The notes beneath the pieces were generated by a model. The model was not told the DNA's origin and did not search any database. It was given only the letters and a program-made list of their open reading frames with translations. DNA of 64,000 bases from Idiomarinaceae bacterium HL-53 (GTDB lineage Bacteria; Pseudomonadota; Gammaproteobacteria; Enterobacterales; Alteromonadaceae). Below are positions 43,778 through 48,084 of this stretch, one piece after another. The DNA is taken from NCBI GenBank assembly GCA_001458075.1, contig LN899469.1:620001-684000 (forward strand), written 5' to 3'. The number at the start of each line of letters is the position of its first letter. Position 1 is the first letter of the stretch. Made by a program: the position numbers and the translations under genes.

Positions 43778-43854
43778 GCACCCGTAGCTCAGCTGGATAG
43801 AGCGCTGCCCTCCGGAGGCAGAGGTCACAGGTTCGACTCCTGTCGGGTGCGCCA
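43778..43854 (+). tRNA. tRNA-Arg (anticodon CCG)
   Basis: A full 77-base cloverleaf: acceptor GCACCCG/CGGGTGC, D loop with AGCTGGATAG, anticodon stem CTGCC/GGCAG with loop CTCCGGA giving anticodon CCG (reads CGG), T arm ACAGG-TTCGACT-CCTGT, discriminator G and an encoded CCA. The part from the anticodon loop to the discriminator is repeated downstream, so this gene is the attachment site of the adjacent cassettes and stays intact. Confidence 0.97.
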
Positions 43855-43857
43855 TTT
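43808..43857 (+). repeat. att-like repeat 1, inside tRNA-Arg
   Basis: From the anticodon stem/loop through the 3' end of the tRNA and three bases beyond. The 44 bases 43808-43851 are identical to 46114-46157; after one mismatch (C/T) the next five bases, CATTT, also match. tRNA 3' halves are classic tyrosine-integrase targets. Confidence 0.9.
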
Positions 43858-44150
43858 AAATCAGCATCCCCTTTGCTAGTAACCACTCACTTCAAAATCC
43901 ATGTGACATATACGTGGCAAATTTGTGACAAGACTCTCAGGCCACACTTTTGGTTTTAACTCTTGTACGATCAAAGGGCAAGTTTAGGAACGATTCAGTA
44001 TTCGAACAGGATGAGAGTAATAAAGAAACAAGAAGGTATCTGGAAAGTCATTCTTTGAATCGGGCCTATTTTATCCAACCTTTGTGCCATGCATACAAAA
44101 GCACACCCAGAGTAATGATGGGGATGAGCCAAGGCAGCACAAGAATAATA

Positions 44151-45464
44151 TCAATCCAGAGTTCGCGCTAATGTGCTGCATCGCTCATGAATGCGGTCGA
44201 CAATTTGGTGATACAAGTCTGTTTGCATCGGTGTTTTGAAGTCGCTGTCTAGTGCCTTCACGACCTTGCTGATCAGTTGTGTCATTTGGTTTTCAATCAC
44301 TGTTTGAGGCAGCCCTATATTTAAACCCAAGTGCACAAAATCATGCTTGGTATAGTAACCAAATGCGTTGTATGCATCACTGAAATGACCTTCATCTCCC
44401 TCTTCGATTGCAAGAACGCCAATTGACATGAAACAAGCGCGATCGAATTGAGGGTATGGGGCGAGGCTGAGCACGTCATACACTGGCGTTAAAATATCCA
44501 TGGTAGTGCTTTGCCCGCCAGGCTTTCGCATTAAGGAAAAATTCTTTAGATGTAGGTCGTTGTTACCAACAATATAGGAAAAAACAACTTGTAAAAATAA
44601 CTTTAGAGTCACCGCTTTACTGTTTCCCGCTGCGTTACTCAACCGTTTTAATACCGTTTCGTAGCTTAATGCGTCGCTGTCTTTATGTTTAGGGTGCACT
44701 AAACACAAGGATGCAGCGTCCTCTATCAAATAACGCTCACTTTCATTCAAAATATCAAAGCGCTTGGTGACGTACGCAAGCTCCCCGTCTTCAAAGGGCA
44801 CAAGACCGCATTCCGCTGCATTTAAACCAATCTTGTTAGCCAAGCTCATGACAAAGAATTCATTTTCTGGGCAATGTGGTGCACCCTCTGGCGCAGGTTT
44901 AACAATGTATTGCCCCCCACGACTCGTCGGAACTAGTTGGTTACCGTCCAATTTCATCATGAGCTTTCTCTGCACACCGGATATGGAGTGCCCATTTGTA
45001 TGATCGACCGCGTAATCGTCAAATGAACGTGATGTGCCAATTATAGTAACGCCTTTGTTTCTCAAGGCACTTGGTTTGGGTATAGGAAGTTTAATAAACC
45101 GATCTGTGGTTAAGGTATCAACCTCACCTGCCACGATAGAAATTGCACCGATAAGCTCTTCTCCGTTGGCGCATAACAAACCAAATTCATCACTTTTATC
45201 GAGCCTTGCCTTTTGCGCCTGATGTGCTCTTAACCAACCTTCCGAGAGCAAGTTGGAAAAGAAAGGCGGGAAGGCGTCAAACTCATATCGTGTTTGGGTT
45301 AATGGAAAATGATGCCCTATGGGAGTGCCATGCCTCAGATATTCTTCGGCATAAGTAAAGGTATAAGACTCGCGCCCAGATAAATCTTGAGGATCACGAT
45401 ACTCGATTAGCGTCCCAGCCTTTATCGCATTAACAAAAACAGTTGCGGTGCGATTAGCTTGCAT
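44151..45464 (-). CDS. HipA-like Ser/Thr kinase toxin (divergent)
   Basis: A 437-residue HipA-fold kinase: an N-terminal subdomain (about 1-110), then the kinase core. The counterpart of the E. coli HipA Ser150 loop reads SISGVQRK (Ser162), the ATP-binding Lys is K189 in QYIVKPA, the catalytic Asp is D303 in GNNDLHLKNFS and the metal-binding Asp D330 in YDVLSL. All active-site positions are therefore kept although identity to E. coli HipA is low. HipA-type kinases phosphorylate tRNA synthetases such as GltX and cause growth arrest; this target is not known here. The ATG at 45464 has AGGG seven bases upstream and overlaps the antitoxin end by 11 bases. Confidence 0.85.
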   Translation of the reverse strand: MQANRTATVFVNAIKAGTLIEYRDPQDLSGRESYTFTYAEEYLRHGTPIGHHFPLTQTRYEFDAFPPFFSNLLSEGWLRAHQAQKARLDKSDEFGLLCANGEELIGAISIVAGEVDTLTTDRFIKLPIPKPSALRNKGVTIIGTSRSFDDYAVDHTNGHSISGVQRKLMMKLDGNQLVPTSRGGQYIVKPAPEGAPHCPENEFFVMSLANKIGLNAAECGLVPFEDGELAYVTKRFDILNESERYLIEDAASLCLVHPKHKDSDALSYETVLKRLSNAAGNSKAVTLKLFLQVVFSYIVGNNDLHLKNFSLMRKPGGQSTTMDILTPVYDVLSLAPYPQFDRACFMSIGVLAIEEGDEGHFSDAYNAFGYYTKHDFVHLGLNIGLPQTVIENQMTQLISKVVKALDSDFKTPMQTDLYHQIVDRIHERCSTLARTLD

Positions 45465-45762
45465 CTGCACGCCCTATGTATAATCTGTAATCGCCAAACA
45501 CAGAGATAATCGACTCAAGCGTTGCGCGTTTAGTAGAACCCGGAGTATTGAATGCAGCGTATAGGGTCGCTTTACTAATCATCGCAAGCTCGCAGAATGT
45601 GTCGATGGTGATATCGTTTTCTTTCACATAATGAGTTACGCGCACTTTTAACTCCGAGAGCGGAAACATATCTTTAGCCTCAAGCTCTTGCGCTTCGATA
45701 CGCTCAAGCTCTATCAAGAGCGCCTGAACTCTCTGCTTGATTTCTGTGATATTGCTTTTCAT
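45454..45762 (-). CDS. HipB-like antitoxin with helix-turn-helix
   Basis: A 102-residue protein from the ATG at 45762. The first half is helical and charged (EIKQRVQALLIELERIEAQE), unlike short HipB; the second half is a plausible XRE-like HTH (TIDTFCELAMISKATLYAAF, ATLESIISVFGDYRLYI). Gene order antitoxin then toxin with a short overlap is typical of type II systems. Two copies of TATAGCATAC upstream are likely operators. The long N-terminal extension could carry the neutralising surface. No exact family name can be given. Confidence 0.7.
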   Translation of the reverse strand: MKSNITEIKQRVQALLIELERIEAQELEAKDMFPLSELKVRVTHYVKENDITIDTFCELAMISKATLYAAFNTPGSTKRATLESIISVFGDYRLYIGRADAS

Positions 45763-46558: not shown

Positions 46559-46561
46559 TAC

Positions 46562-47872
46562 ATGGATACGCTTGATGTTTACATGAACGGCATAAAAACG
46601 GGCGAATATACTCGCGCACACAGTGGTGCCAGCACTTTTATTTACGACAAGGCCTGGCTCGAGTCTCCAGGCCGACGCAGCCTATCACTTTCGTTACCCC
46701 TAAGAACTGCGCCCTACAAAGGCCTTAAAGTCTATAACTACTTTGACAATCTCATCCCTGACTCTCGCGAAATTCGTGAGCGCATTGTAGCTCACTTTCA
46801 TGCTGACTCTACCGATCCATTCGATATCTTGTCGCATATTGGTCGAGATTGCGTCGGCGCTGTTCAGCTTGTTCCACACGGCTCTTTAGCGCCAAATGTA
46901 CACACTATCGATGCAACGCCACTCAGCGAGGACGATATAGCAAAAATTTTAACGGGATATAAGTCGAATACACCACTGGGCATGTTAGACGCAGAAGCCG
47001 ACTTTCGTATTTCGCTCGCCGGTGCTCAAGAAAAAACAGCCTTACTATTTCATAATGGGCAGTGGTGCTTACCTCACGGAGCAACCCCTACAACGCATAT
47101 TCTAAAGCTACCAATTGGCGAGATACGTTCACATGATCGCGTCATCGATATGACGCATAGTGTTGAAAATGAGTATTTATGCCTGAAAATTGCGAAAGCT
47201 TATGGATTTGATACTGCAGATTGCGACATCATCACACCCGATGGAGTCAAAGCGCTCTCTGTAGAGCGTTTTGACAGGAAATTTGCAGCAGACAGAACAT
47301 GGATTATGCGCTTGCCCCAAGAAGATTTTTGCCAAGTCACGGGCGCATCTCCCGCAAGAAAATACGAAGTAGAAGGGGGTCCTGCAGTATCGCGGATCAT
47401 GAAAGAACTGGTTGGTGCACAACGTCCTATTCAGGATCGGGAAATATTCATGCGCACACAAGTCTTGTTTTGGATTCTGGGCGCTACGGACGGTCACGCA
47501 AAAAACTTTTCCATTTTTATTGATAAAGGAGACCAGTATCGCCTCACCCCTCTCTACGATATTTTATCCGCGTTCCCCACAGTCAATAAGAAAAGCTTAC
47601 ACGAAAAGGATCTGAAGCTGGCAATGTCACTGAAAGGTAGTAGGGGCAGAAAATATGAATGCCGGATAATTAGCCGCCGGCATTTTTTGGCAACTGCGAA
47701 CGAAGTTGGCTTTAGTGGGGAAGCGATGAACAAGATACTGGATGACATGGCTGCCCGGACTGAGCAGGTTATTGAGGACGTTGCGACCAAGTTACCGCAT
47801 TCATTTCCTACATTTATTTCAGAGCCAATTTTTGAAGGCATGCGCAAGTATAGCCAGCGTCTAGTTACCTGA
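46562..47872 (+). CDS. hipA: HipA Ser/Thr kinase toxin
   Basis: A 436-residue HipA very close in layout to E. coli HipA (440). Autophosphorylation Ser151 is in RISLAGAQEKTALL (E. coli Ser150), the ATP Lys is K182 in THILKLPIGEIR, catalytic D310 is in GATDGHAKNFSIF and metal-binding D333 in YDILSAF. In E. coli the kinase inactivates glutamyl-tRNA synthetase, triggers ppGpp and persistence. All key residues are intact, so it should be active when free of HipB. The gene is much closer to E. coli HipA than to its neighbour in cassette 1, so the two cassettes are not a simple duplication. Confidence 0.93.
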   Translation: MDTLDVYMNGIKTGEYTRAHSGASTFIYDKAWLESPGRRSLSLSLPLRTAPYKGLKVYNYFDNLIPDSREIRERIVAHFHADSTDPFDILSHIGRDCVGAVQLVPHGSLAPNVHTIDATPLSEDDIAKILTGYKSNTPLGMLDAEADFRISLAGAQEKTALLFHNGQWCLPHGATPTTHILKLPIGEIRSHDRVIDMTHSVENEYLCLKIAKAYGFDTADCDIITPDGVKALSVERFDRKFAADRTWIMRLPQEDFCQVTGASPARKYEVEGGPAVSRIMKELVGAQRPIQDREIFMRTQVLFWILGATDGHAKNFSIFIDKGDQYRLTPLYDILSAFPTVNKKSLHEKDLKLAMSLKGSRGRKYECRIISRRHFLATANEVGFSGEAMNKILDDMAARTEQVIEDVATKLPHSFPTFISEPIFEGMRKYSQRLVT

Positions 47873-48055
47873 GGGGTTAGTTGTAGATTACTTGCAACCA
47901 AAGAAACAAGCGTACTGATCATCACTCACAAGCGTTGGCCGTAGCCGATCGTCTGGCTAAATGGCCTCGTTAAAATATCGCTAAGGCCCGTATAGGGCGT
48001 GCCGTACACGGTTAGTACCTTCTCTCACCGTTTAAGGACAGCCAGACGCCATTTA

Positions 48056-48084
48056 CTCCAGAAGCAGAGGTCACAGGTTCGGCT
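48056..48084 (+). repeat. att-like repeat 3, degenerate
   Basis: Twenty-nine bases aligning to the tRNA-Arg 3' part with three mismatches, including an exact 18-base core (48064-48081, GCAGAGGTCACAGGTTCG). The acceptor end is missing. It marks the right border of cassette 2 and touches the broken PepSY gene. Confidence 0.75.

Follow-up and report, generated by a model that had tools for sequence, protein, structure and literature searches.

Genomic islands at transfer RNA (tRNA) genes have usually been studied as units that carry their own integrase, and integron cassette arrays that lack the integrase are known as clusters of attC sites lacking integron integrases (CALINs). Cis-mobilizable elements (CIMEs) are described, in the sections of a review available here, as having kept attL and attR after loss of their integration genes, and as taking part in a three-step accretion in which the next element integrates alongside (PMC5704250). 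For the ssrA islands of Dehalococcoides, the passages available distinguish 16 with an integration module from 15 without, the latter being suggested to be CIMEs (PMC3146451). In Shewanella putrefaciens CN-32, HipAB lies next to attR in GI21/CGI48 and is reported, in the available part of the paper, to stabilise the composite island (PMC8978831). The locus analysed in the present study belongs to Idiomarinaceae bacterium HL-53 (contig LN899469.1, positions 620,001 to 684,000; this whole 64-kb stretch is referred to as the window), in which 4.3 kb (43778..48084) at the tRNA-Arg(CCG) gene contain two HipBA-type toxin-antitoxin (TA) pairs. From comparison of their sequences with related loci, these 4.3 kb are likely to be two stacked, integrase-less, CIME-like elements of one island family.

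The window contains one tRNA gene, tRNA-Arg(CCG) (43778..43854, plus strand; ARAGORN), the 3' half of which (core copy 1, 43808..43857, plus strand, repeat family D2) would be the left attachment core of the first element, cassette 1. A second copy (46114..46163, plus strand) ends cassette 1 and starts cassette 2, and agrees with the tRNA 3' half at 49 of 50 positions, 44 of them in an uninterrupted run. The third copy (48056..48084, plus strand; 26/29 identity) is decayed and shortened on its 3' side. With up to three mismatches allowed, the 29-nt core occurs at exactly three places in the 64 kb, i.e. the tRNA and the two copies, and not once in 100 shuffles. An earlier sequence-only reading of the window had already described the 3' part of the tRNA as repeated with 44 identical bases at 46114 and in degenerate form at 48056, and these repeats can now be regarded as putative attachment cores.

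The copies delimit intervals of 2,260 bp (cassette 1) and 1,942 bp (cassette 2) and, as the same reading had stated, each interval of about 2 kb holds a single HipA-type pair in opposite orientation to the other (hipA1/hipB1 on the minus strand, hipB2/hipA2 on the plus strand), with no further convincing open reading frame (ORF). HipA1 (44151..45470, minus strand) is a toxin-type kinase of 439 aa with matches to PF07804 and PF13657, and its closest solved chains are HipA_C-domain proteins, HipT(Lp) among them. The gene overlaps by 17 nt with that of HipB1 (45454..45807, minus strand), a putative antitoxin of 117 aa that adjoins HipA1 in seven other genomes; in the Pfam scan, HipB1 had nothing above the curated cut-off, its two best matches having E values of 0.025 and 0.051. 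In cassette 2, three 16-bp operator-like repeats (TTTACG....TAGCGTA; 46188..46257, plus strand), found by direct reading of the sequence, precede the gene for HipB2 (46304..46558, plus strand), an antitoxin of 84 aa with a helix-turn-helix domain (HTH_3; Pfam scan). This is followed by the gene for HipA2 (46562..47872, plus strand), a 436-aa toxin that closely resembles E. coli HipA and matches PDB entry 2wiu at E 6.7e-131 with the TDGHAKNFS stretch, presumably catalytic, aligned and kept. Both toxins contain Couple_hipA and HipA_C domains; by their kinase genes both pairs are of the HipBA type, and toxin and neutralisation activities are predicted for them. HipA1 and HipA2 are only 25% identical over 357 aa and represent distinct HipA lineages, in agreement with the previous statement that the toxins are not close paralogues. 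Duplication of one TA pair was rejected for the same reason.

Next to its cores, cassette 1 has arm sequences. The left arm (43856..43934, plus strand) matches the left-arm model R1 with 63 bits, being one of its five training rows, and includes three arm-type iterons with an 11-bp period (TGTGACA-CGTGGCA-TGTGACA; 43902..43930, plus strand; pattern search). This iteron array is the sole match in the 64 kb on both strands and was absent from 100 shuffles, as was the core, and a chance origin of the repeats and iterons was rejected on these grounds. In about 362 kb, composed of 20 loci of 16 genus-mates and 18 kb of the window, the array was found 14 times, in all cases on the same strand as the tRNA, at a distance of 46-122 bp past tRNA-Arg(CCG) or a 3' copy of it, which in one case is a mere 19-nt remnant; these loci were selected around the tRNA, so the counts describe position within loci and not a genome-wide rate. 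Two spacing classes can be distinguished: type A, to which the array of the window belongs, with about 47 bp, and a second class with 111-122 bp. Arrays occur in integrase islands (G012, G002, G004, G006) as well as in integrase-less elements (G000, G005, G008, G009, G002r), where G numbers denote genomes of the comparison set (one genome per species, G000 being that of the window) and L numbers denote loci. The sequence-only model of type A left arms (five rows including the window) was run over 395 family genomes and gave at least 25 loci among the matches listed, those below about 25 bits probably often being noise; most of the 25 loci read follow tRNA-Arg(CCG) or one of its copies and come from the same genus or from genera g50, g52 and g5. 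Two weak left-arm-like matches in other genera (L115, L119) follow tRNA-Val and tRNA-Met.

The approximately 110 bp preceding the tRNA copies fall into families, as judged from z scores for all pairs of 14 arms against 100 mononucleotide shuffles. The right arm of cassette 1 (46000..46113, approximate limits, plus strand) resembles sister-genus right arms of G381 (z 11.7) and G188 (z 9.7), and that of cassette 2 (47952..48055, plus strand) strongly resembles those of element 3 of G381 (z 47.8) and of G207 (z 39.8). As the latter arm precedes position 48056, the decayed copy 3 would be a true attachment end. In G002, the end of a 36-kb integrase island shares its right arm with HipA cassettes of G015 and G004 and with a HipBA cassette of G002. 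Judged from these comparisons, both elements in the window are bounded by tRNA 3'-half copies, cassette 1 with left and right arms and cassette 2 with a right arm and a decayed core, and their arms are the same as those delimiting PF12167 integrase islands in relatives.

These islands, found at tRNA-Arg in G002, G004, G006 and G012, encode a tyrosine integrase with an Arm-DNA-bind_2 domain (PF12167/DUF3596; Pfam scan of the G006 protein), the four integrases being 66-82% identical to each other. Relatives of the G012 integrase are present at E<=1e-30 in 90 of the 395 family genomes, and with at least 68% identity in 12 of them (G012 counted). Ten of these 12 have a left-arm model match on the same contig within 15 kb (above 30 bits in three of the ten); a direct search revealed the iterons in G004 also, which leaves G253 as the exception. 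In Rheinheimera texasensis, hipBA is followed by the tRNA core copy, the iterons and the integrase (52% identity). In plasmids, identity to the PF12167 integrase is at most 53.5% among the matches listed, with one further record in the 60-80% band, and in phages at most 32.6% among the matches listed, with none in viral contigs.

A search of G000 for a relative of the PF12167-type integrase gave no match at E<=1e-30, and a resident cognate integrase was rejected. The genome has seven PF00589 matches, all more than 200 kb from the tRNA and with at best about 21% resemblance to a PF12167 integrase, so the cognate tyrosine integrase that the sequence-only reading had proposed to look for elsewhere in the genome was not found. 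Within the window, four PF12167 integrases used as tblastn queries had no match below E 0.05 (lowest 0.051); an integrase remnant was rejected, and the statement that no recombinase is present holds for the tyrosine class. The idea of an integrase acting in trans, also put forward there, is reasonable for the present or the past in so far as integrase islands share the arm sites; movement in trans is regarded here as possible. As no cognate integrase was found in G000, the stack is most likely fixed today and, on present sequence, probably immobile.

Separately bounded elements are also found in tandem at the tRNA-Arg gene of other genomes. In G381, a sister-genus genome in a single contig, tRNA-Arg is followed by six tandem 3' copies, spanning 72 kb and six elements (L121-L124; 2197885-2270241), and each copy matches one of four tRNA queries at 100% identity over 45-50 aligned nt. 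None of the seven PF00589 matches of G381 lies inside this 72-kb stack, the cargo of which includes a UvrD-like helicase, a DUF6088/AbiEii pair, HipBA and AbiE, as well as some genes that we read as encoding metal efflux. For 28 delimited elements at tRNA-Arg in 18 genomes, no PF00589 match was found in 26, the two with a match being those of G012 and G002; other recombinase classes, including serine recombinases, were not searched. Elements were included in this census if both ends were on fetched DNA and the genome had been searched for integrases; genomes were chosen because they had the site or the arm, there is homology among some elements, and the fraction 26/28 is a description, not an estimate. 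Left out were the open-ended integrase islands of G004 (C7), G006, G140 and G266, a second G005 unit, one end of which is decayed, and units of G253 and G065. Units of 1.9-3.5 kb that are TA-only or nearly so were identified in G000 (two), G016, G005, G354, G007, G345 and G002, with HipBA and AbiE pairs being recurrent at the site.

Several of these loci have further peculiarities. In G016 the stop codon of hipA2 lies inside the tRNA copy that closes the cassette (L055:5080-5126), and a second locus of G007 (L045:9560-12140), which lies behind a gene for glutamate dehydrogenase, has an AbiE-only unit flanked by a tRNA-Arg copy and a diverged full-length tRNA-Arg. At L041, L054, L057, L055 and L156 a palindrome resembling repetitive extragenic palindromic (REP) sequences (AAAACGG....CCGTTTTGG) stands after a GGTTCGA-like T-loop half, and at several of these loci the tRNA 3' end comes next. 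At L056, L058, L044, L052, L060 and L140, the 5' half of tRNA-Arg is followed after about 50 bp by a complete tRNA-Arg, which looks as if an element had imported its own full tRNA gene.

Within 17 genomes of the genus, 12 of 59 HipA_C matches are at most 10 kb from tRNA-Arg or one of its copies, where 0.6 would be expected. Close relatives of HipA1 (at least 75% identity, G000 counted) lie within 5 kb of tRNA-Arg or a copy in five of eight cases, the exceptions being G012, G317 and G169. For HipA2, 18 close relatives (at least 70%) were found and 17 examined, of which 10 have tRNA-Arg or one of its copies within 3 kb, one is beside tRNA-Met and six are near neither. A HipBA2 relative of G008 (L308:7119-8939) stands directly behind a tRNA-Met gene. 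Among 80 named HipA2 relatives from all bacteria, five are encoded within 3 kb of a partial tRNA copy, which in 5/5 cases is of tRNA-Arg(CCG): Aliidiomarina sanyensis, Alishewanella jeotgali, an Idiomarina metagenome-assembled genome, Rheinheimera oceanensis and R. texasensis. The query alignment already contained two of these five. Within the same distance of 3 kb, nine of the 80 have an intact tRNA gene, irrespective of its type. Islands in general attract TA pairs, and the HipA enrichment is therefore taken to indicate a hotspot, not a special tie of HipA to this tRNA.

Of the 16 genus-mates, only G012 has a HipA1 with 75% identity or more, and it lies at a different locus. An ancestral presence of the cassette pair in the genus was rejected on this basis, and the same 4.3 kb in all relatives, named in the sequence-only reading as an outcome that would contradict it, was not encountered. 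The tRNA-Arg of G000 is identical over all 77 nt to that of five sister-genus genomes, and its T-stem differs from that of the intact tRNA-Arg(CCG) in 16/16 genus-mates, as if the 3' half had been swapped by an incoming element; vertical inheritance is also possible.

Could a single, larger island have decayed in place, with the middle copy arising as an internal repeat by duplication? A deletion appears to have reached into the right side of the stack, since the decayed core copy 3 abuts the 3' remnant of a PepSY_TM gene (48085..48611, plus strand), the open frame of which continues into core copy 3, with the ORF called from 48114; the remnant covers positions 249-293 of the 295 of PF03929 (E 1.5e-5, under the family cut-off). 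This single-island explanation agrees with such a right-side deletion, but we consider it very improbable, as no integrase remnant was found in the window, the two pairs are from different HipA lineages, each copy has its own distinct right arm with relatives in other elements, and tandem, separately bounded elements are common at the tRNA-Arg site. The different lineages and right arms instead favour separate arrivals stacked on one site, as had been proposed earlier.

The TA pairs show signs of exchange across genera. HipBA2 shares 92.4% DNA identity over 1,634 bp with G188 of the sister genus, whereas a core helicase protein of G000 and G188 is only 67% identical, which suggests a horizontal origin of HipBA2. 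The shared block starts about 70 bp past the core and reaches no further than the end of hipA2. Between G005 and G188 or G386, AbiE blocks are about 93% identical; they begin at a terminator, include the right arm and reach into the core, with different left neighbours. A sharp edge at TGTARTC beside a terminator-like hairpin was seen in seven of the nine AbiE places viewed (loci L043, L136, L137, L126, L128 and L124), three of the seven sharing one context. Modules therefore appear to have been exchanged at their own edges, and not only as whole att-to-att units.

One explanation of these edges is that TA modules spread among existing islands by homologous or illegitimate recombination, through transformation or island exchange, and that the tRNA copies derive from older islands, without an integrase being involved in bringing in the pairs. 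The limits of the HipBA2 block and the sharp AbiE edge are in line with it. The AbiE homology, however, continues through the right arm into the core, each TA pair of the window fills its att-to-att interval without any other gene, and homologues of HipA1 and HipA2 occur at the same tRNA in other genera; as an account of the whole locus we hold this explanation to be unlikely, if worth keeping in mind.

Since the shared blocks break at TA module edges, they also argue against an integron-like cassette as the unit of exchange, a part of the sequence-only reading that finds no support in its original form: G188 shares only the HipBA module, and the AbiE module keeps its right end while its left neighbours vary. 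A related possibility is that the TA-only units are living minimal cassettes that still move in trans upon entry of a cognate integrase, making tRNA-Arg an integron-like platform without an integrase. Such mobility would fit with the two almost identical cores and the near-consensus left arm of cassette 1, the recurrence of TA-only or TA-dominated units of 2-3.5 kb (G016, G005, G354, G007, G345, G002), the arm sequences common to integrase islands, and the sister-genus type of the G000 tRNA 3' half. Yet the shared blocks are TA or right-end modules, not entire att-to-att units, cassette 2 appears decayed, and searches of plasmids with cassette 1 and of phages with both cassettes gave short matches, covering at most 4% among the matches listed. 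Specifically, cassette 1 DNA matched 48 plasmid records, none over more than 80% of the query (the 10 listed cover 4%), and the two cassettes matched four phage records at 1-2% cover, two of which are annotated as tRNA-Arg. At the protein level, HipA2 matched 2,053 plasmid records, none with at least 60% identity. In our view it is doubtful that these are living cassettes.

We therefore return to the two stacked CIME-like elements as the preferred explanation. Each element would have entered via an integrase of the PF12167 type, by site-specific recombination in the anticodon-arm region. Integration would rebuild the tRNA and leave the old 3' half downstream as a copy, and a second arrival at the same site would displace the first element downstream. 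The integrase and other cargo may have been lost later, or may never have been there, and the HipBA pair may have been retained because its loss would be punished by freed toxin, addiction being our hypothesis here. The resulting elements would be movable only on entry of a cognate integrase. That the cassettes could be relics of larger islands kept by their TA pairs had been offered earlier as an alternative, and it fits at least as well as integron-like cassettes, with precedents in CIMEs, the ssrA islands and HipAB at attR. More tentatively, and with considerable doubt, tRNA-Arg(CCG) in the Idiomarina-Aliidiomarina-Pseudidiomarina group (as well as Alishewanella and Rheinheimera) may be a shared platform, on which tiny non-autonomous, often TA-only elements are integrated, stacked and shuffled by the integrases of passing islands and locked by addiction, so that stacks would grow and seldom be lost.

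Several observations weigh against the two-element explanation. All support for integration and movement derives from sequence alone. In cassette 2 no left iterons were found on either strand of the window, and its right core is truncated. The homology between G000 and G188 is limited to the HipBA module, from the operator region to the end of hipA2, and includes neither attachment end. HipA loci at tRNA-Arg without a right copy are present in G001, G009 and G010, and a strong left-arm match in G353 has no visible tRNA copy before it. Three of eight close HipA1 loci and seven of 17 close HipA2 loci are away from tRNA-Arg, in part close to the end of a contig. The census is biased towards small elements, with the four open-ended integrase carriers uncounted and those counted partly related. 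Finally, in a Pfam scan of 10 proteins seven were without a family, five of them encoded at the right ends of three larger islands (with integrase in G002 and G012, without one in G014), and the placing of HipBA as the attR-side module of a full integrase island is for that reason something we infer.

In a limited literature search, by which absence is not proven, no paper was recognised as describing this tRNA-Arg array, and the terms integrase and tRNA gene do not occur in the available text of a HipA phylogeny paper (PMC8262856). When compared with described systems, the locus resembles CALINs in being an array of short units between recombination sites with the integrase elsewhere; the sites in CALINs are attC sites, whereas the repeats found here are copies, in direct orientation, of a tRNA 3' half and are accompanied by iteron arm sites, and the cargo has its own operators. 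An autonomous island would have its own tyrosine integrase between attL and attR, which neither cassette has. GI21 likewise has a HipAB module next to attR, but in the part of the paper available it is described as 21 kb in size with its own integrase and excisionase, whereas the window elements are TA-only (PMC8978831). The Dehalococcoides islands, in the passages available, are also tandem islands between direct repeats of an RNA gene, with a serine recombinase and the tmRNA gene in place of the PF12167 tyrosine integrase family, tRNA-Arg(CCG), TA cargo and the 26/28 elements without PF00589 match found here (PMC3146451). With CIMEs, as far as covered in the available sections, the elements share the retained att ends, the lack of integration genes and accretion at the same site, although the reviewed CIMEs are decayed integrative and conjugative elements or integrative and mobilizable elements, and the window intervals are just 1.9-2.3 kb with a TA pair only (PMC5704250). 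By sequence, cassette 1 appears to have kept both cores and both arms, cassette 2 more weakly a right arm and a partial core; neither interval contains integration or transfer genes of its own, and the kinship to an integrative element with the same att site is seen in the iterons and right arms shared with PF12167 islands.

The kind of element is already known, and what is new is the proportion of elements without an integrase, together with the TA-only size: most delimited elements at this site are integrase-less, and the smallest are pure TA pairs. This offers a testable natural system for the movement and persistence of integrase-less elements, and for whether TA pairs are kept by punishing loss, with the conserved iterons and core as exact targets for an in-trans excision test.

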